Positions 19,665 to 29,628 of a stretch of DNA of 64,000 nt are shown piece by piece. This stretch comes from Gammaproteobacteria bacterium. Its GTDB lineage: Bacteria > Pseudomonadota > Gammaproteobacteria > SZUA-140. The DNA is taken from NCBI GenBank assembly GCA_015491865.1, contig WFVD01000026.1:124001-188000 (forward strand), written 5' to 3'. How positions within the stretch are numbered: the stretch's first letter is position 1; each line of letters starts with the position of its first letter. The position numbers and the translations under genes were made by a program. The notes under the pieces are model-generated. The model made no database searches, was not told the DNA's origin, and saw only the letters and a list, made by a program, of their open reading frames with translations.

Positions 19665-20472
19665 GCTGCCAGAGGTCGAGACCACGCGGGCAGGTATTGA
19701 GCCGCATCTGGTTGGCGAGGTGGTTACTGCAGTAAAGGCCTATCAGCGGCAGCTGCGCCGTCCGGTGAGTGCAAGGCTGGCAACGGCGCTGAAGGGTGGC
19801 ATGTTTGAATCTGTGACGCGCCGAGGCAAATATCTGTTACTGAAAAGTGGCCGTGGTAGTGTGATTATTCACCTTGGGATGTCCGGCAGCCTGCGTCTGG
19901 TGGCTGAAGGTGTCGTGCTAGAAAAACACGATCATGTTGAATTTTTTCTGGCGAGCGGAGGGTCGTTACGCTATCGCGACCCACGCCGTTTCGGGCTGGT
20001 GCTGTGGACGGCAAAAGATCCACTGCAACACCCTCTCATTGCGAAGCTTGGGGTAGAGCCGCTGGCAGCGGCGTTTGATGCTGACTATCTTCACTCAATT
20101 GCACAACAGCGCAGTGTCGCAATTAAACAATTGATTATGAATGGCCAGGTAGTGGTGGGTGTGGGGAATATCTACGCCAGCGAGGCGCTGTTTCGTGCCG
20201 GGGTTCATCCAGCGCGGGCGGCGAAGCGACTCTCACGCGCGCGCTGCGAACGACTGGTGAGCGCAATCAGGGCAGTGTTATCGGAGGCGATCAAGCAGGG
20301 CGGCACGACACTGCGCGATTTTTATAATGGCGCGGGCGAGCCTGGGTACTTTAAACAGCGCCTGCAGGTCTATGGTCGCGGTGGCGAGCCGTGCGTGAGT
20401 TGTGGCGCTGCTATTCGTCAGACTGTGCAGGGGCAGCGCTCCACCTGGTACTGCGGGCGCTGCCAGCGTTAG
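19657..20472 (+). CDS. mutM: Formamidopyrimidine-DNA glycosylase
   Basis: MutM/Fpg removes 8-oxoguanine and formamidopyrimidines from DNA. The start ATG at 19657 gives the obligatory MPELPEVET N-terminus with the catalytic Pro2 and Glu3; an upstream in-frame ATG would destroy this. HLGMSGSLR, the VGNIYASEALF helix-two-turn-helix, and a C-terminal zinc finger with four cysteines (CVSCG and WYCGRC) are all present. It overlaps the DUF4340-type gene and converges on a membrane protein gene with 4 shared bases. Confidence 0.96.
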   Translation: MPELPEVETTRAGIEPHLVGEVVTAVKAYQRQLRRPVSARLATALKGGMFESVTRRGKYLLLKSGRGSVIIHLGMSGSLRLVAEGVVLEKHDHVEFFLASGGSLRYRDPRRFGLVLWTAKDPLQHPLIAKLGVEPLAAAFDADYLHSIAQQRSVAIKQLIMNGQVVVGVGNIYASEALFRAGVHPARAAKRLSRARCERLVSAIRAVLSEAIKQGGTTLRDFYNGAGEPGYFKQRLQVYGRGGEPCVSCGAAIRQTVQGQRSTWYCGRCQR

Positions 20473-21926
20473 CCCTCAGTTTTGGTGGTTGCTGCTTCGC
20501 TTTCTGTTGTATGTGATGGTGATTCAAGCGGCGCTATTGGAGCCTTTTTAATGCGGATCACAACCCCCGCCTCCTGAAGTGACAGCGTCTCGGCAATACC
20601 GCTGAGCTCCGATATGTTTTTACTTAACCCCAAGTTCTCCTCCAGTGTGTGGTCAAATATCAGATGTGTGATGCCTTTAATGCTGCTCAGGAATTCCGCG
20701 CTATCTTCCCTGGCGTAGGGCAGTGGAAAAACGTCGCGACGGGTCGCCAGCATGGTGCGTGCAGGCCACTGACTCGCAGCCTGGAAAGGGGCATCAGGGT
20801 CGGCGGCTTCAACCGCCAGCTGATGGATGATGTCATCGGTTGGGGAGAGAAGCTCGCTTTTCAGGATCTGTCGATACTGTTTGTCTGCCAGCATAAAAGC
20901 GGTACTGACAATGAATAGCACAACAATGACGATACCGCGCTGTCCCATCAAACTGTTACTGCTAAAGGACTGGTTGAACGTAACGAGCAGTGCCATGCCG
21001 CGAAAAAGCAGCAGCGCAATGGCGATCATTGCCCACTCTGGAGTCGCCGCAACAAGGCCGACAAGTACGGCGAATAGCAGCGCGCTGCCCATCAGATCGT
21101 TGAGTAGAAATGCCCGGTCGCGAATGATAACGATAACGAGCAGTAGCGCAACGACCAGTCCGATAAGCCAGCTTGCTGGCTCACCAAATCCAATCGCACC
21201 GTTCTGAATGGCGTTGGCCAGGGTGGCGAGTGGGTCACTAAACCAGACGATATCTTTCTGCCAGCCATTCTGGAAAGTAAGAATGAGTGGGATTGCAATT
21301 GCAAGCCCAACGAGTATCTGTCTTTGCTGGGTCTTGTTGAGCGGGTCTCTGATCCACAACCAGGCCAGTGCAAGCGCATAGCCAAGCCCTGCCGGGTGCA
21401 GGCTCACAGCGGTGATGACCACTAACAGTTGTACGAAGAACCAGCCGCCTAGTGGGCGTGGCTTGGCGCGATAGGTATTACTTACCCACAGGCCGATGCC
21501 AAAGGTGAGCAGCAGCATCGGGCCAGTACCGATCGAACTGATCTGGGTAATGGTCAGCGGGCAGATCAGCAGCAGCGCTGTCGCCATCAGGGCAGATTCA
21601 TGATTTTCTCTTCGCGCCCAGTAATAGAGAAACATTGTGCCAAAAAAAGCGAGCATGGCGGTGAATATTTTGGTGGCAAGCATGCTACCGGACCAGTAGA
21701 TCGCGACGGGTAGCAGCAGAATGGCACGCATATCCGGGGTACCAAAGGTAGCGACAGGATTGGCGATTCGGTCCACTATCGACCAGAGAAATAGAAGTGC
21801 TTTTGCGGCCCCTTCATTAAGCCCATAAGGGGTCAGGTTGATGAGATTAAACCCCCAGAAAAGTGCGGCAATCCAGACAGCGAGTATAATCAGTCTCAGG
21901 TATTTTTCAGGGATGGCGACTCGCAT
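20469..21926 (-). CDS. Polytopic membrane protein, possibly PMT/ArnT-like glycosyltransferase
   Basis: This 485-residue protein has roughly eleven hydrophobic segments, then a C-terminal soluble part of about 140 residues. The first loop (INLTPYGLNEGAAKAL) and the alternating short-loop membrane pattern resemble GT-C fold (PMT/ArnT-like) transferases, but a catalytic acidic motif is not clear. ATG at 21926 has GGAGAG just upstream and is preferred over a TTG at 21959. Function is unproven. Confidence 0.6.
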   Translation of the reverse strand: MRVAIPEKYLRLIILAVWIAALFWGFNLINLTPYGLNEGAAKALLFLWSIVDRIANPVATFGTPDMRAILLLPVAIYWSGSMLATKIFTAMLAFFGTMFLYYWARRENHESALMATALLLICPLTITQISSIGTGPMLLLTFGIGLWVSNTYRAKPRPLGGWFFVQLLVVITAVSLHPAGLGYALALAWLWIRDPLNKTQQRQILVGLAIAIPLILTFQNGWQKDIVWFSDPLATLANAIQNGAIGFGEPASWLIGLVVALLLVIVIIRDRAFLLNDLMGSALLFAVLVGLVAATPEWAMIAIALLLFRGMALLVTFNQSFSSNSLMGQRGIVIVVLFIVSTAFMLADKQYRQILKSELLSPTDDIIHQLAVEAADPDAPFQAASQWPARTMLATRRDVFPLPYAREDSAEFLSSIKGITHLIFDHTLEENLGLSKNISELSGIAETLSLQEAGVVIRIKKAPIAPLESPSHTTESEAATTKTEG

Positions 21927-22094
21927 GTTCTCTCCAGCGTAAGTAGTTTTATCTTTCAAAATGCAGGTTTGGCAGGTATCGACGTTAAGGTAGAGAACCC
22001 CTGCGGGTGTAGAAATAAAAATGCCTCAGCACTTAAAGGCTATTAATGGGGCTTGATGGTTTCGTTCGACTTTTTTGGTGTTCTTTAAAGTAGA

Positions 22095-22115
22095 ACACGC
22101 CCCGTTGGGGCGTGT
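22095..22115 (-). terminator. Hairpin downstream of the 25-residue ORF
   Basis: ACACGCCCC and GGGGCGTGT form a perfect 9-bp stem with a 3-base loop. On the minus strand it is followed by a T-containing tract and sits about 45 bases after the stop of the small gene at 22159-22236, so it likely ends that transcript. The T-run is weak. Confidence 0.5.
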
Positions 22116-22158
22116 CTTTAACTGCTCAAACTTGGTTCTACTGGTATTCAATAATCCT

Positions 22159-22236
22159 TTAGTTTGCAAACAGCAGAGGTATAATTGCAAAAAGAATTAG
22201 TGTTACAGCGATCGTTGTTGCTGGTAATGCACCCAT
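22159..22236 (-). CDS. 25-residue single-helix membrane peptide
   Basis: A complete tiny ORF starts at ATG 22236 and reads MGALPATTIAV then a strongly hydrophobic run ending LLFAN. The ribosome site GGGAGGGG lies 7 bases upstream, a promoter-like pair lies about 95 bases upstream and a hairpin follows. No family is recognised. It sits at the edge of the cytochrome/oxidase region, and its size and single helix fit a small subunit of a membrane complex; that role is inference. Confidence 0.6.
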   Translation of the reverse strand: MGALPATTIAVTLILFAIIPLLFAN

Positions 22237-22333
22237 GATAATCCCCTCCCAAAATAAAAACGCTAAAATTTTGTTGTTGGCCCAGCTCGAAACTTAGCCG
22301 AGCCATCTTTTACATAAAACGTAAGACACAGAG

Positions 22334-22361
22334 AGTATCTACATTGAGTGGGCGATGTCAA
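22334..22361 (-). promoter_or_regulatory. Sigma70-like promoter for the 25-residue peptide gene
   Basis: On the minus strand TTGACA (22356-22361) is a perfect -35 hexamer, followed after 16 bases by GATACT (22334-22339) as the -10. It points at the small ORF at 22159-22236 and would give a leader of about 90 bases. Confidence 0.5.
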
Positions 22362-22726
22362 TAACTCTCCATCGCGTATGTTGGGGTTAAATGTACGATT
22401 GTTTAGTAGGATATGCTTGGTTTATATTGCGCCTGAGGTTGGTAGCAGTGAGGTGGTCGAGTTATCTCGGGGGGATGAGCGGCATCGTGGATTCCGCATA
22501 GTGGATACGGCGGGTTTTTGGGGTGCTCAGGGATTTAAAGGGATTTAGTGCTTGAACTGTATCGATCGGTCATGTTATATATCACCATCCTTGGGTATTC
22601 CCAACCAAAATGCTGTAATGCATAGGGTGGTCTACTCTAAGATTTTTTGGGGGGTATAATGCGCGAATCGATTATGAATTCGTCGCAATTAGAACTATTT
22701 TTGAGGCTTTGTTAGGAGGGATTGAA
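22362..22726 (+). promoter_or_regulatory. Gene-free stretch with a TATAAT promoter box at 22655-22660
   Basis: No convincing gene was seen here; an ORF in 22348-22548 has no ribosome site and no recognisable protein character. A perfect -10 hexamer TATAAT occurs at 22655-22660 with a weak TCTACT about 18 bases upstream. It probably drives the 30-residue peptide gene and the cytochrome c4 gene after it. Confidence 0.45.
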
Positions 22727-22819
22727 ATGTTAGAGACACCAGCGATTGCAACACTGTACCTGCTTTGGTTTATCTTGGCTTTTGGCTTGGCAGCAGTAAT
22801 GCTGAAAATGAATTCGTAA
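22727..22819 (+). CDS. 30-residue single-helix membrane peptide
   Basis: ATG 22727 is preceded by a strong AGGAGG and opens a 30-residue ORF: METP-type polar start (MLETPAIATLY), a hydrophobic helix, then LKMNS. It is too short for standard gene calling but the ribosome site is excellent. It lies about 120 bp upstream of cytochrome c4, probably on the same transcript. It may be a small subunit of a respiratory complex; no family match is claimed. Confidence 0.6.
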   Translation: MLETPAIATLYLLWFILAFGLAAVMLKMNS

Positions 22820-22939
22820 AAAATAGCATTAAGTTTAGCCGGATGACTTTGATGGCGAGGGCCTGTTCGTATCAGTTGTGGTGCGACCAATTCCAAGATC
22901 ATCTGGAAAAAATGTATAAAAATTGGGAGGGGTCTTGAA

Positions 22940-23674
22940 ATGCGTAGGTACTTAATATCGATGTCAGCTTTGGCGTTTGTTGCAGGCACGCTTGCACCAA
23001 CAGCGGCTATGGCATCCGCTCAGTACTCAAAAGGTGATGGAAACGTTAGTAATGGTAAAACCATATATGAACAGGGGAAGGGTGATGTCCCTGCCTGTAA
23101 TTCATGCCACGGTGTTGATGGCAACGGTGATGATAATATGGGGACACCGCGTCTAGCGGGACAGGGTTTTACTTTCCTGTTGAAACAACTGGAAGATTTT
23201 GCAACAGATAAGCGTATGGATGAAACGATGTTCGTGATGAATGCCAATGCAAAAGGCATGAGTCCACAGGATCGTCGTGATGTGGCTACTTATCTTGCGC
23301 AAAAGCAAGATGCTTTTGCTGGTTCAAACCTTAAAGAGCTAGCTGCTAATGGTGTCGTTACAGGTAAAACCAACTTCGGAAAATCACTTGTTGAAATTGG
23401 TAGCCCAGAGCTTTCTGCATGTAAGTCATGTCACGGTTATGCAGGTCGAGGTGCACCACCTATCTATCCTGTAATTCTGAATCAGCGTTATACCTATCTG
23501 GTCAGTCAGCTGAAGAAGTTCCGTGATGGAAGTCGTGCAAATGATCCAATGGGTCAGATGCGTGCAATTGCCAGGAAGATGTCTGATGATGACATCAACA
23601 ATGCTGCTGCATATCTGACTTCTGCCGAGAGAAGCACGCCAGGCAATCCACAGACTCCTTATACAATCCACTAA
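22940..23674 (+). CDS. Diheme cytochrome c4-like protein
   Basis: This is a 244-residue secreted protein with a signal peptide (cleavage near AMASAQ). Two class I cytochrome domains follow, each with a heme site: CNSCH at about 53-57 and CKSCH in the second half. Each half has the c4-like MSPQDRRDVATYLA / MSDDDINNAAAYLT helix. Cytochromes c4 are periplasmic electron carriers that can donate to cbb3 oxidases. GGAGGGG precedes ATG 22940. A strong terminator follows, so it ends its own transcript. Confidence 0.92.
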   Translation: MRRYLISMSALAFVAGTLAPTAAMASAQYSKGDGNVSNGKTIYEQGKGDVPACNSCHGVDGNGDDNMGTPRLAGQGFTFLLKQLEDFATDKRMDETMFVMNANAKGMSPQDRRDVATYLAQKQDAFAGSNLKELAANGVVTGKTNFGKSLVEIGSPELSACKSCHGYAGRGAPPIYPVILNQRYTYLVSQLKKFRDGSRANDPMGQMRAIARKMSDDDINNAAAYLTSAERSTPGNPQTPYTIH

Positions 23675-23775: not shown

Positions 23776-24435
23776 ATGGGGCTCACCAAACGAATTGGTA
23801 ATATTCCTGGTATGGCAAAAAAGCAACCCCTGAAGTCCGGTGAGAAGATATTGTTAGGTATATTCGGTGCCTTCTTCTGTCTCGCCGCGATTGGTTATGT
23901 CGTGCTGGAAAGTGTTCGCCTGACTTCTGAGAAGCCGATGTTTACTCAGACAACCTTTTTTAATTTTTCCGAAGAAGGGAAAATCGGTCATGGTTACTAC
24001 ATGAAGGCGAACTGTAATGCATGTCACCGTGCAGTACGGAGTGGTACCAGTATGGGGCTGTCATTAGATGGAATTGGCTCGAAAAGAAGTATTGACTGGT
24101 TGGAGCAGTTTTTATTAGAACCTGAGCGTGTTTACGAAGGGCCAACGATTGACCATGGCGTTGGGAAAGAGGCTGGTAACATTATTGCCAGGCTTTCTGA
24201 AGATAAGATTAGACCTATCGCTGTCTTTCTTTCTGAACTAAAAGCCGTGGCAGGCTCATCAGTCTCCAAAGTCCCGCCGCCGGAGCGTTCTGAATTTATC
24301 GATGGAATGGTTGGTTCATGGGCTCCAGAAGGGTGGAAAGAAAAATATGAAGATGTTCGCGATCGTATCAAGCGTGAAGAAGGAGAGGCGGCAGATCGTG
24401 ATGCTGCGGATGAAGAGGTGATCGATGCGCGCTAG
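23776..24435 (+). CDS. Membrane-anchored monoheme cytochrome c
   Basis: This 219-residue protein has one N-terminal membrane helix (about 25-47), then one heme site NCNACH and a C-terminal acidic tail. After the heme it carries SLDGIGSKRSIDWLEQFL, a motif shared with the cytochrome at 31252-31743, so the two are paralogues. It overlaps the short heme-copper-oxidase-like gene by 11 bases, which suggests that they work together in electron transfer. The axial methionine is not certain. Confidence 0.82.
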   Translation: MGLTKRIGNIPGMAKKQPLKSGEKILLGIFGAFFCLAAIGYVVLESVRLTSEKPMFTQTTFFNFSEEGKIGHGYYMKANCNACHRAVRSGTSMGLSLDGIGSKRSIDWLEQFLLEPERVYEGPTIDHGVGKEAGNIIARLSEDKIRPIAVFLSELKAVAGSSVSKVPPPERSEFIDGMVGSWAPEGWKEKYEDVRDRIKREEGEAADRDAADEEVIDAR

Positions 24436-24964
24436 ACCCTGGACGCATGAACAAGAGCAGGATTACCGTAAATATACCCTCTGGTTTATTTATGCCTGTG
24501 TGATTTACAGTATTATAGGTTTCTCATGGGGTGTGATTGTTGGTATGTTCCCTGATTTAAGGGAATTCATTAATCATCGCCCTCATGGTAACCTGATTAT
24601 GCTGGGCCATGGTCACCTTAATCTGCTTGGCTGGGTAGAGATGGCCATATTTGGCTCGATTTACTACATTATTCCTCGCCTGGTCAGGCGACCAATTTAT
24701 AGTTTTAAACTGGTGCGTATTCACTTTTGGATGCATAATTTTGGTTTGCTTGGAATGGTGGTGTCATTTGTTGCTGCTGGTGTGATGGGTGGCATGGCGA
24801 GTATGTCGATGTCTCCAGCTGAGACCAGTGAAATTGTCCGTCCCATAATGATTACTGTCGGTATGTTTGGTCTTCTTGTGCTGTCGGCGAATATTATTTG
24901 GGGCTTTAATATTTTCCGCACCTGCATGGGCTGGGAGAAAGATTATGTTCGAGATTGTAAATAA
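24425..24964 (+). CDS. Short heme-copper-oxidase subunit I-like protein (four helices)
   Basis: This 179-residue integral membrane protein has four helices. The second carries LGHGHLNLLGW and is followed by IPRLVRRPIYS and IHFW. That order resembles the CcoN segment with the H-x-H heme ligands (AHAHLALLG, then RRKLYS and FHYW, in the CcoN at 27169-28578). The protein covers only about one third of a normal subunit I and lacks CuB ligands, so it cannot be an oxidase by itself. It may bind heme as a redox or assembly subunit. A relative lies at 39962-40489. Confidence 0.7.
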   Translation: MRARPWTHEQEQDYRKYTLWFIYACVIYSIIGFSWGVIVGMFPDLREFINHRPHGNLIMLGHGHLNLLGWVEMAIFGSIYYIIPRLVRRPIYSFKLVRIHFWMHNFGLLGMVVSFVAAGVMGGMASMSMSPAETSEIVRPIMITVGMFGLLVLSANIIWGFNIFRTCMGWEKDYVRDCK

Positions 24965-25975: not shown

Positions 25976-26173
25976 TTAGCCTCTGCCTGTTCGGCGTTTT
26001 ACAATATCCCATCCCAAGAATGCCATTACGGTGGCAGATATCCCTAATACAATAATTGTGATCGTCTGTTCAGTTTCTTCATCGACCAGTCCTCCTACAA
26101 ACATGTGAACAGTATAGGCCATAAGGAGTAGCGAACTGATTGCCACAATTAGATAAATGATAGTTTCCTTCAT
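25976..26173 (-). CDS. Small two-helix membrane protein
   Basis: This 65-residue protein has two hydrophobic helices separated by an acidic loop (GGLVDEETEQT) and a basic tail (KRRTGRG). It is coded against the surrounding respiratory genes, in the gap between two of their transcripts. No family recognised. The ribosome site (AAAGAGC) is weak. Confidence 0.5.
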   Translation of the reverse strand: MKETIIYLIVAISSLLLMAYTVHMFVGGLVDEETEQTITIIVLGISATVMAFLGWDIVKRRTGRG

Positions 26174-27168: not shown

Positions 27169-28578
27169 ATGCTAATTAAATATCTATTTGCGAAAAACGA
27201 AGATATACCGGCAGGTTCGTCGTCGGTATTCTTTGGTTTTTCAGCAATTTTTTGGTTTGTAATAGGGACTGGGCTAGGTTCCTTTAATGCCGCCAAGCTG
27301 GCATTTCCGGACTGGGTTACTGGTACGGAAATGTTTGCTTTTGGTCACATGCGCCAGGTGCATGTACTAGCTGTCATTCTTGGCTGGATTTCAATGGCGT
27401 TCGCAATGACCATGATGTACATGACTCCAGCGCTGGGTAACACCAAGCTGTGGTCTGAAAAACTGGGTCTCTGGAATGCGTTCCTATGGAATGTTGGCCT
27501 GAGTCTTGGTCTTTTTCTATTGTGGATGGGGATTACATCTGGTCGTGAATATTCAGATCTGATCTGGCCGATCGATATTGTGGTCTTCCTTGGTGTACTG
27601 CTTCCGCTGGGTATTAACGTCTGGATGACCATTGCACATCGTAGAACCCAGGGTATCTATATTACCAACTGGTTCTTCGGTGCTTGTATCTTTATGGTAA
27701 TGGTTGTATTCGCGGTAGGTCAGTCTCCAGAGCTATTCAACTTGACTGGCTTAACAGAAGCGTACATGACTTTCTGGTTTGCCCATAACGTACTTGGTCT
27801 ATGGATTACGCCAGTTGCAGCAGCGATTGCTTATTACACCATTCCAAAGTTGACCGGTAACCCACTCTATTCACATAGAATTGGTCATCTGCATTTCTGG
27901 TCAATCATCGCGTTCTACTCAACACCAGCGTCGCATCACCTGATGTCTGCCCCACTGCCTGAATGGTTGAAGTCATTCGCATCTGTAGAAGGTGTTTTGA
28001 TTCTGATCCCGGCAGTAGCATTCGTAGCTAACATCTTGCTGACAATGAAAGGCAAATGGAGCATGTTTGTTGAGAATGTTGAGACCAAGTTCTCTATTAC
28101 TGGTGTTCTGCTTGCTATTCCTTTGAATATGCAGGGTGGTTTCCAGCAGACTCGTGCGATCAACTGGTACGTCCATGGTACTGGCTGGATTGTGGCTCAC
28201 GCTCATCTGGCACTGCTTGGTATGTCTACATTCCTGGAAATCGCGGCTGTATACTTCGGTCTTCAGCAGATCCTGAGAAGAAAACTTTACTCTCTGGCGC
28301 TTGCTAATTTCCATTACTGGTTCGTTCTGATCGGCTTTTGTATCTACTGGATCTCAATGACTATTGCTGGTCTGATTCAGGGCGCAGGGAAGATCTACGA
28401 AGTACCATACATTGACGTGGTGGTTGCAGAACATCCATACATGATCGCTCGTTGGGTTGGCGGTACAATGGTATTTACCGGTAACCTGGTATGGCTCTAC
28501 AACATGTACATGACCGCTCGCGAAGGAACCGTAGTTCCAGCTGGTCGTTATGCCCACGAGATGGCTTACGAACGCTAG
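27169..28578 (+). CDS. ccoN: Divergent C-family heme-copper oxidase subunit I (CcoN-like)
   Basis: This 469-residue protein with about 12 helices is the catalytic subunit. H65 (MRQVHVLAVILGW) and H346 would ligate low-spin heme b, H344 the high-spin heme, and H206 (FAHN), H256 and H257 (SHHL) the CuB site. Y250 stands six residues before H256, where C-family oxidases have their His-linked tyrosine. Positions match Pseudomonas stutzeri CcoN almost without gaps, yet Q322 replaces its conserved Glu. Family placement is firm. O2 reduction is favoured by the tyrosine, but an NO-reducing branch of the family is not excluded. GGAGGAGAGGG precedes the ATG. Confidence 0.88.
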   Translation: MLIKYLFAKNEDIPAGSSSVFFGFSAIFWFVIGTGLGSFNAAKLAFPDWVTGTEMFAFGHMRQVHVLAVILGWISMAFAMTMMYMTPALGNTKLWSEKLGLWNAFLWNVGLSLGLFLLWMGITSGREYSDLIWPIDIVVFLGVLLPLGINVWMTIAHRRTQGIYITNWFFGACIFMVMVVFAVGQSPELFNLTGLTEAYMTFWFAHNVLGLWITPVAAAIAYYTIPKLTGNPLYSHRIGHLHFWSIIAFYSTPASHHLMSAPLPEWLKSFASVEGVLILIPAVAFVANILLTMKGKWSMFVENVETKFSITGVLLAIPLNMQGGFQQTRAINWYVHGTGWIVAHAHLALLGMSTFLEIAAVYFGLQQILRRKLYSLALANFHYWFVLIGFCIYWISMTIAGLIQGAGKIYEVPYIDVVVAEHPYMIARWVGGTMVFTGNLVWLYNMYMTAREGTVVPAGRYAHEMAYER

Positions 28579-28671
28579 AAGCTAGCTTTAGTAAATCGTC
28601 GTACATATCCCCTTCTCTCAGTGAGGGTCGAGAGAAGGGGGATAAAAAAGATAAATGGGAGGGTTTTAAAC

Positions 28672-29628
28672 GTGGCATTTCAACAACATAAATTAGGGGC
28701 AGCGGCTATCGGGGGGATGTTAGGTCTCTCGATGTGTATTACGCTAATGTTTCCAAGTTTTGACTTTCGTTCAGCGGAGTCAACTTGGGTTGGTCTGGAT
28801 AAGTCATTATCTAATGGCCGTGTAATTGGCTTTAGTTACGAAGATCCACTTGTGACCGGTGCGGGTAAGCCTATCACAGTGATTTTGGACAAAGATCCAA
28901 AAACTGGAGAGAAAATTGATCCGCCAATGCGTGCTTATGTCTATGAGCCGGGTGTGCCATTCGCACCAGCTGTCCGTCATCCAGCTAATACTGGGCCAAC
29001 GGTGAGCCAGTTGAGTTTGAATCTTGGAAAAATGGGTGAGGCAAGTGAAGCTCAGGGCGCTGTTTTCGGTATTAATCGCGGTGAAGTTAATGGCAAAGAC
29101 TGGGATTACATTGAAAATCTAACAGCACTCAAAGGCTGGACACCAGCTGATACTCTGCGTGCTGCATCAGATGAAAATACCCGCTACGTCGGTAAAGGCA
29201 AGACGGTCTACATCACTGAGGGTTGCTGGTGGTGTCATACACTACTACCTGAGCAGACACAAGACTGGCAGATCTTTGGTGCTCCACCAATGCTAGGCGA
29301 TTTCAACGGTGAAATGCCAACAGCTTTTGGTTCTGACCGCAAGGCTCCTGATATCCTTCATGTAGCTTCACGTAACTCATCAAGAGAATGGATGGATATG
29401 CATTTCTTCAATCCACGTCTTGTTCAGCCAAACTCAATCATGCCGCGTTTTGATTACCTTTGGGGTGAGACAGATGCACATGGCAACAAGATTGATTTTG
29501 ACAAGTGGCGTGCAGAGTATAAGGAATACCGAGCTGGAACTAGGATCTATCCACCTGAAATTCCAGAATATGCAGGTAATTCTGAAGCACGTGCGCTCGT
29601 TGACTGGATCCTGACGAGTCTCAAGTAA
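28672..29628 (+). CDS. ccoO: CcoO-like monoheme cytochrome c subunit
   Basis: This 318-residue protein has one N-terminal membrane anchor (about 8-28) and one heme site CWWCH (185-189), then the CcoO-type order GSDRKAPDILHVASRN and FNPRLVQPNSIMP, where M257 is the likely axial ligand. It is the membrane cytochrome partner of CcoN. The start is GTG 28672 with GGGAGGG upstream; ATG 28621 is less likely because it has no ribosome site. It is longer than usual between anchor and heme. No ccoP gene follows. Confidence 0.87.
   Translation: MAFQQHKLGAAAIGGMLGLSMCITLMFPSFDFRSAESTWVGLDKSLSNGRVIGFSYEDPLVTGAGKPITVILDKDPKTGEKIDPPMRAYVYEPGVPFAPAVRHPANTGPTVSQLSLNLGKMGEASEAQGAVFGINRGEVNGKDWDYIENLTALKGWTPADTLRAASDENTRYVGKGKTVYITEGCWWCHTLLPEQTQDWQIFGAPPMLGDFNGEMPTAFGSDRKAPDILHVASRNSSREWMDMHFFNPRLVQPNSIMPRFDYLWGETDAHGNKIDFDKWRAEYKEYRAGTRIYPPEIPEYAGNSEARALVDWILTSLK

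Follow-up and report, generated by a model that had tools for sequence, protein, structure and literature searches.

A conserved 25-codon gene for a predicted single-helix membrane peptide beside a c4/cbb3-type respiratory gene cluster in one gammaproteobacterial genus

Comparison across related genomes indicates that a 25-codon open reading frame (ORF) on the minus strand of the window, the 64,000-nucleotide stretch of gammaproteobacterial DNA analysed as a whole, is very probably a real translated gene. Its product, if translated, is very likely a single-helix membrane protein. As the overall best explanation of this product, to which a probability of about 0.5 is assigned, the peptide would serve a larger membrane complex as an accessory subunit consisting of one helix. 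The sequence-only reading had described a tiny but credible gene for a membrane peptide, one that most gene-finding programs would overlook, and this description is supported by conservation, the gene being intact at all six loci at which it was found.

The features of the gene and its surroundings are collected in Table 1. A promoter, a ribosome site, a complete ORF and a stem-loop had been proposed to line up on the minus strand, and each of them is present at its proposed place. Taken separately and within a single genome, the motifs are no more than chance would give; comparison with other genomes raises the case above chance. A consensus promoter scan, a method that overlooks many promoters, found one site where 2.3 were expected in shuffles of the region, and the TTGACA/GATACT pair of the 25-aa gene is the sole promoter-like site that it found on either strand of 21900-22960. 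When up to two mismatches were allowed, the promoter block had one match in each of 6 of 20 family genomes, always at the 25-aa locus, and no further copies elsewhere in those six genomes; it was not found in ten family genomes of six other genera. A regulon sharing the block was rejected, no second copy being present in the genome at up to three mismatches. Two other readings of the block, both made by eye, were also rejected: a palindromic operator (AGAGT...ACTCT) overlapping the promoter, the left half of which is missing in species L004, and a sigma-54 promoter, for which the GC at -12 of the consensus used in the comparison is not kept in L001 and L003. The stem-loop, which occurs as a single copy in the window at up to two mismatches, probably terminates transcription; its U tract is imperfect, and it was not among the sites listed by a terminator scan.

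Table 1. Position, strand and description of the 25-aa gene, its elements and the neighbouring genes in the window.
Feature	Position	Strand	Description
485-aa polytopic membrane protein gene	20469..21926	-	Next gene downstream of the 25-aa ORF, same strand, 232 bp away
GC-rich stem-loop	22094..22116	-	ACACGCCCC-AAC-GGGGCGTGT plus a G-T pair; tail CTACTTT; probable terminator
25-codon ORF and stop	22159..22236	-	ATG at 22236, TAA ends at 22159; product MGALPATTIAVTLILFAIIPLLFAN
Shine-Dalgarno sequence	22243..22250	-	GGGAGGGG, 6 nt ahead of the ATG
Possible 5' UTR hairpin	22279..22304	-	9 bp, 8-nt loop; arms set by eye
Promoter-like block	22330..22361	-	TTGACATC...GATACTCTCT; TTGACA 22361-22356, 16-nt spacer, GATACT 22339-22334
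30-aa microprotein gene	22727..22819	+	Shine-Dalgarno AGGAGGG; product MLETPAIATLYLLWFILAFGLAAVMLKMNS; runs divergently to the 25-aa gene
c4-like diheme cytochrome c, 244 aa	22940..23674	+	Pfam Cytochrom_C 3.8e-19, two stretches; the name c4 was assigned by reading, and no library model gives c4
Second cytochrome c-like protein	23776-24435		N-terminal hydrophobic stretch; Pfam score 20.2, just under the cut-off of 21.3
179-aa protein	24425-24964	+	Match to oxidase subunit I confined to its C-terminal part (positions 304-433 of the 436 in the COX1 profile)
65-aa ORF	25976-26173	-	Lies within the respiratory cluster but on its opposite strand; contains two hydrophobic stretches; no family reached the cut-off
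CcoN-like cbb3-type oxidase subunit	27169-28578	+	Pfam COX1 4.4e-73
CcoO-like cbb3-type oxidase subunit	28621-29628	+	Pfam FixO 1.3e-15

The gene was traced by a peptide search of 55 relatives, repeated with a profile, which gave matches along the whole peptide in six of the ten genomes of the genus, that of the window among them; the comparison sample is accordingly six genomes of one genus, few and related. Start, stop and length are the same at all six loci, 12 of the 25 residues are invariant, among them P5, P20-L21-L22 and A24-N25, and the order of the genes around the 25-aa gene is kept throughout. Frame-disrupting changes in close relatives, which the sequence-only reading had named as evidence against a gene, were searched for, and none was found at these loci. 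Across the six-locus alignment, none of the 78 columns of the ORF is gapped, compared with 23 of 89 in the 5' UTR before the Shine-Dalgarno (SD) sequence and 29 of 51 between the stop codon and the stem. Invariant columns account for 53% of the ORF, 80% of the interval from SD to ATG (12/15), 69% of the promoter block (22/32) and 74% of the stem-loop (20/27), so that the last two exceed the ORF in column invariance; four other measured stretches reach 13-24%. In the four genus genomes that lack a peptide match (G001, G002, G005 and G006), neither the neighbouring 485-aa gene nor an orthologous c4-like cytochrome was found, matches to the latter reaching at most 40% identity. The peptide region of G001 probably lies off the contig, because its CcoN-like gene starts at contig base 721; for the other three genomes, a true absence of the locus and an assembly gap are not distinguishable.

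The pattern of substitutions within the ORF was examined for signs of coding selection. Variable columns number 14, 6 and 17 at the first, second and third codon positions (26 columns each), and are thus rarest at the second. The frame score of the ORF was reached in 1 of 2000 column shuffles, a figure that overstates the coding case because column shuffling itself makes stops. In a stricter test, the 41 derived changes were redistributed randomly over the same bases. The observed set holds 22 nonsynonymous changes and no stop; as few arose in 2.3% of the random placements, and the lack of stop changes alone is unremarkable (the same in 69% of the trials). The summed change in hydrophobicity was equally small in 0.03% of 10,000 trials (P about 0.0003). 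Furthermore, when changes were applied singly, one new polar, charged or stop outcome was observed against 4.4 expected, with as few in 2.0% of trials. Pairwise dN/dS ranged from 0.11 to 1.09 on tiny counts, and the top value belongs to a pair that differs by four changes overall. Taken together, ORF conservation, codon positions and substitution tests support selection acting on the hydrophobic peptide and not on the RNA alone.

Within the 5' UTR, a hairpin was delineated with its arms set by eye; 49 of 53 cells are paired, 6 of the 9 pairs are changed on both sides, and whole-arm swaps match the pairing in 39 of 5000. It was not found by RNAalifold on a MAFFT alignment. Since folding z-scores beat shuffles significantly in only two of the six 5' UTRs, and since RNAalifold preferred another pairing, between an invariant CUCUCU and an invariant GGGAGG and without covariation, the hairpin is left as possible. 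The CUCUCU (22330-22335, minus strand) lies just past the -10-like element and complements the GGGAGG of the ribosome site (22245-22250, minus strand); its inclusion in the transcript depends on where transcription begins.

The peptide of the window has a GRAVY value of 1.94 and no charged residue, and the same character is found at the other loci of the genus, D, E, K and R being absent from all six peptides and GRAVY lying between 1.9 and 2.3. With 25 residues, one hydrophobic helix and a conserved ORF, it fits the single-helix small membrane proteins, which are a kind of protein (below 50 aa) and not a homologous family. None of the six peptides matched an NCBIfam model at E 10, Pfam held no family for the peptide of the window, and no PDB chain was matched at E 10 by the 25-aa profile, all of these searches having low power at such lengths. 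In the portions of the literature available on cbb3 oxidases and CcoM, CydX, cytochrome c4 and taxonomically restricted small proteins, no description of this peptide or of the neighbouring 30-aa peptide was found.

Beyond the genus, the 25-aa profile had no match at E 0.1 in ten family genomes of six other genera; two partial matches in other-genus genomes of the family lay at E 0.22 and 0.98, one of them with an internal stop. Among 369 genomes of the class, strong matches were confined to the genome of the window and one genus-mate. In the other 367, 12 had matches at E 0.05 or below (best 0.0059), all 12 partial, with about 18 expected by chance, and a wider family outside the genus was rejected because these matches are partial and at about chance level. 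A replacement peptide in the same gap of other genera was rejected as well, no divergent ORF with a ribosome site and strong hydrophobicity being found at 13 loci and 20 more. Because matches are missing outside the genus while the neighbouring genes are present there, the 25-aa gene appears either to have arisen within one genus or to have become unrecognisable elsewhere. Since it is restricted to the genus while its flanks are syntenic in sister genera, it is a candidate case of a small gene born recently. In addition, a 25-codon gene that is supported by comparison though absent from the curated family libraries searched provides a clean and checkable example.

Upstream of the gene lies a c4/cbb3-type respiratory cluster, which also encodes a thioredoxin-like protein and from which the 25-aa gene is divergent at all six loci. 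In the family genomes of other genera, the c4-like gene and its next two neighbours were present at 10 of 10 loci without the 25-aa peptide, and the CcoN-like gene at 8 of 10, the remaining two stretches stopping at a contig edge before that point. The 179-aa protein, a half-size oxidase-like membrane protein, is encoded at all ten of these loci. The link to cytochrome c4 genes that had been suggested from the sequence therefore holds inside one genus (six loci) and breaks down in all ten other-genus genomes, where the c4-like gene is preceded by a different, 30-aa microprotein. Because the cluster occurs without the 25-aa peptide in other genera, this peptide cannot be a general subunit of the c4/cbb3 system.

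The 30-aa product, a predicted membrane microprotein, is the broader and more general lead of the two. Matches to it were found in 19 of the 55 relatives, and its profile, four rows of which carry an altered first residue, detected it at an E-value cut-off of 0.001 in 28 of 369 genomes of the class, which belong to 12 families and include the window's own. All 28 have the c4-like gene immediately behind it, in the same orientation. No Pfam, NCBIfam or PDB match was found for the 30-aa peptide, and paralogy of the two peptides was rejected (hhalign probability 0.3%). The stretch at about 22525-22600, between both divergent microprotein genes, is well conserved in the six genus genomes. If its translation were shown, the 30-aa microprotein would be a new respiratory-chain component at the c4-like cytochrome gene. 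A bolder and doubtful proposal is that single-helix subunits form an overlooked layer in the c4/cbb3-type cluster of these Gammaproteobacteria: the widespread 30-aa peptide would be one, and the lineage-specific, possibly intergenic-born 25-aa peptide another that modifies the same complex.

On the preferred reading of the 25-aa gene, its own sigma-70-type promoter would give rise to a short mRNA of about 240 nt, mostly ending at the hairpin, and translation would yield a charge-free peptide of 25 residues placed as one helix in the inner membrane. To judge from the genomic context, this helix would most likely pack on a larger membrane complex and tune its assembly or activity, in the manner of the single-helix small subunits known from respiratory oxidases. 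The neighbouring c4/cbb3-type respiratory cluster is the first choice of partner, though a tentative one: c4-like, CcoN-like and CcoO-like proteins are encoded among the syntenic neighbours, whereas the 25-aa gene is transcribed away from the cluster from its own predicted promoter block. The second choice, nearly as likely and itself on the unlikely side, is the downstream 485-aa membrane protein, which has nine hydrophobic segments of 19 residues and matches nothing in Pfam or NCBIfam.

The same 485-aa gene enters into the alternative that survives best, although it is rather unlikely, namely that the ORF encodes a small protein belonging to this gene or serves as its leader, working through partial read-through, translation-coupled attenuation or helix binding. 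Read-through into the 485-aa gene is possible because the single promoter-like site in 21900-22960 belongs to the 25-aa gene, and the shared strand, the short distance and the imperfect U tract of the terminator also fit; the consensus scan, however, overlooks many promoters, and the gap from the hairpin to the 485-aa gene is 22% invariant. The order of the two genes is kept at 6 of 6 loci, and the 485-aa gene was found in the same 6 of 10 genus genomes as the peptide, the genomes without one being also without the other. Against this alternative, 9 of the 10 family loci from other genera have a divergent 485-aa homologue in the corresponding position, as do 21 of the 28 loci of the class (22 of 28 by another count), there on the other side of the 30-aa gene and at most 1.5 kb away, yet the 25-aa peptide was found in no other genus. 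A regulatory codon run was not seen in the 25-aa ORF.

A stress-induced or toxin-like role, in which the hydrophobic peptide would act alone on the membrane in the manner of a type I toxin or a small stress membrane protein, is improbable. The size and hydrophobicity of the peptide would fit such a role, as would the conserved promoter-like block and SD sequence and a 5' UTR that may be structured. Known type I toxins are often cationic, whereas this peptide is chargeless, and it has a single full-length match in its genome. Plasmid or viral relatives, which would also have spoken for a mobile origin of the gene, were not found, and that origin was rejected. A search for the antisense RNA antitoxin of a type I system gave no Rfam match above threshold and no promoter-like site on the plus strand of 21900-22960, both being weak tests.

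Still less probable, to the point of being very unlikely, is a small RNA gene or a dual-function RNA with an incidental ORF. A transcript of the inferred length, bounded by promoter block and terminator, the possible conserved 5' hairpin and the conservation of promoter block and stem above that of the ORF would all be in keeping with an RNA gene. Against it stand the rarity of changes at second codon positions with hydrophobicity kept, the fixed ORF length without indels beside a retained SD sequence, and the poor conservation of the remaining 5' UTR (13% invariant); the Rfam search, without a match above threshold, gave two weak matches that lie far below it and on the opposite strand. A chance ORF in an intergenic region, the reading to which the separate motifs of one genome would lead, is hardly credible, as conservation at 6 of 6 loci and the substitution tests argue strongly against it.

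The accessory-subunit reading can be set beside several small proteins already described. CydX is a single-helix small subunit of cytochrome bd, with a mostly malleable sequence and few fixed residues (PMC4325964). CydX (37 aa in E. coli) resembles the 25-aa peptide in being very short, in forming a single hydrophobic helix encoded beside oxidase genes and in often going unannotated, but its gene belongs to the cydAB operon, and Y3, W6 and G9 are conserved in it. The 25-aa gene, for its part, is preceded by a promoter block of its own, neighbours a cbb3-type cluster and matches no NCBIfam or Pfam model; with respect to CydX, CydH and the named oxidase small subunits, it shows neither a family-model match nor an oxidase-operon location. 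CcoM, a 36-aa subunit of the cbb3 oxidase of P. stutzeri (PMC10433244), is similarly tiny and belongs to a cbb3-type oxidase. Unlike CcoM, the peptide described here has 25 residues, is chargeless and is restricted to one genus although the neighbouring cluster is not. YohP, with fewer than 30 aa and one hydrophobic helix, comes close to it in size and in the single helix, homology having been compared through family libraries only. It is described as a small membrane protein through which E. coli metabolism is affected (PMC12719787), and this description refers to YohP. The 25-aa peptide belongs to this known kind, the single-helix small membrane proteins, and stands outside any named family.
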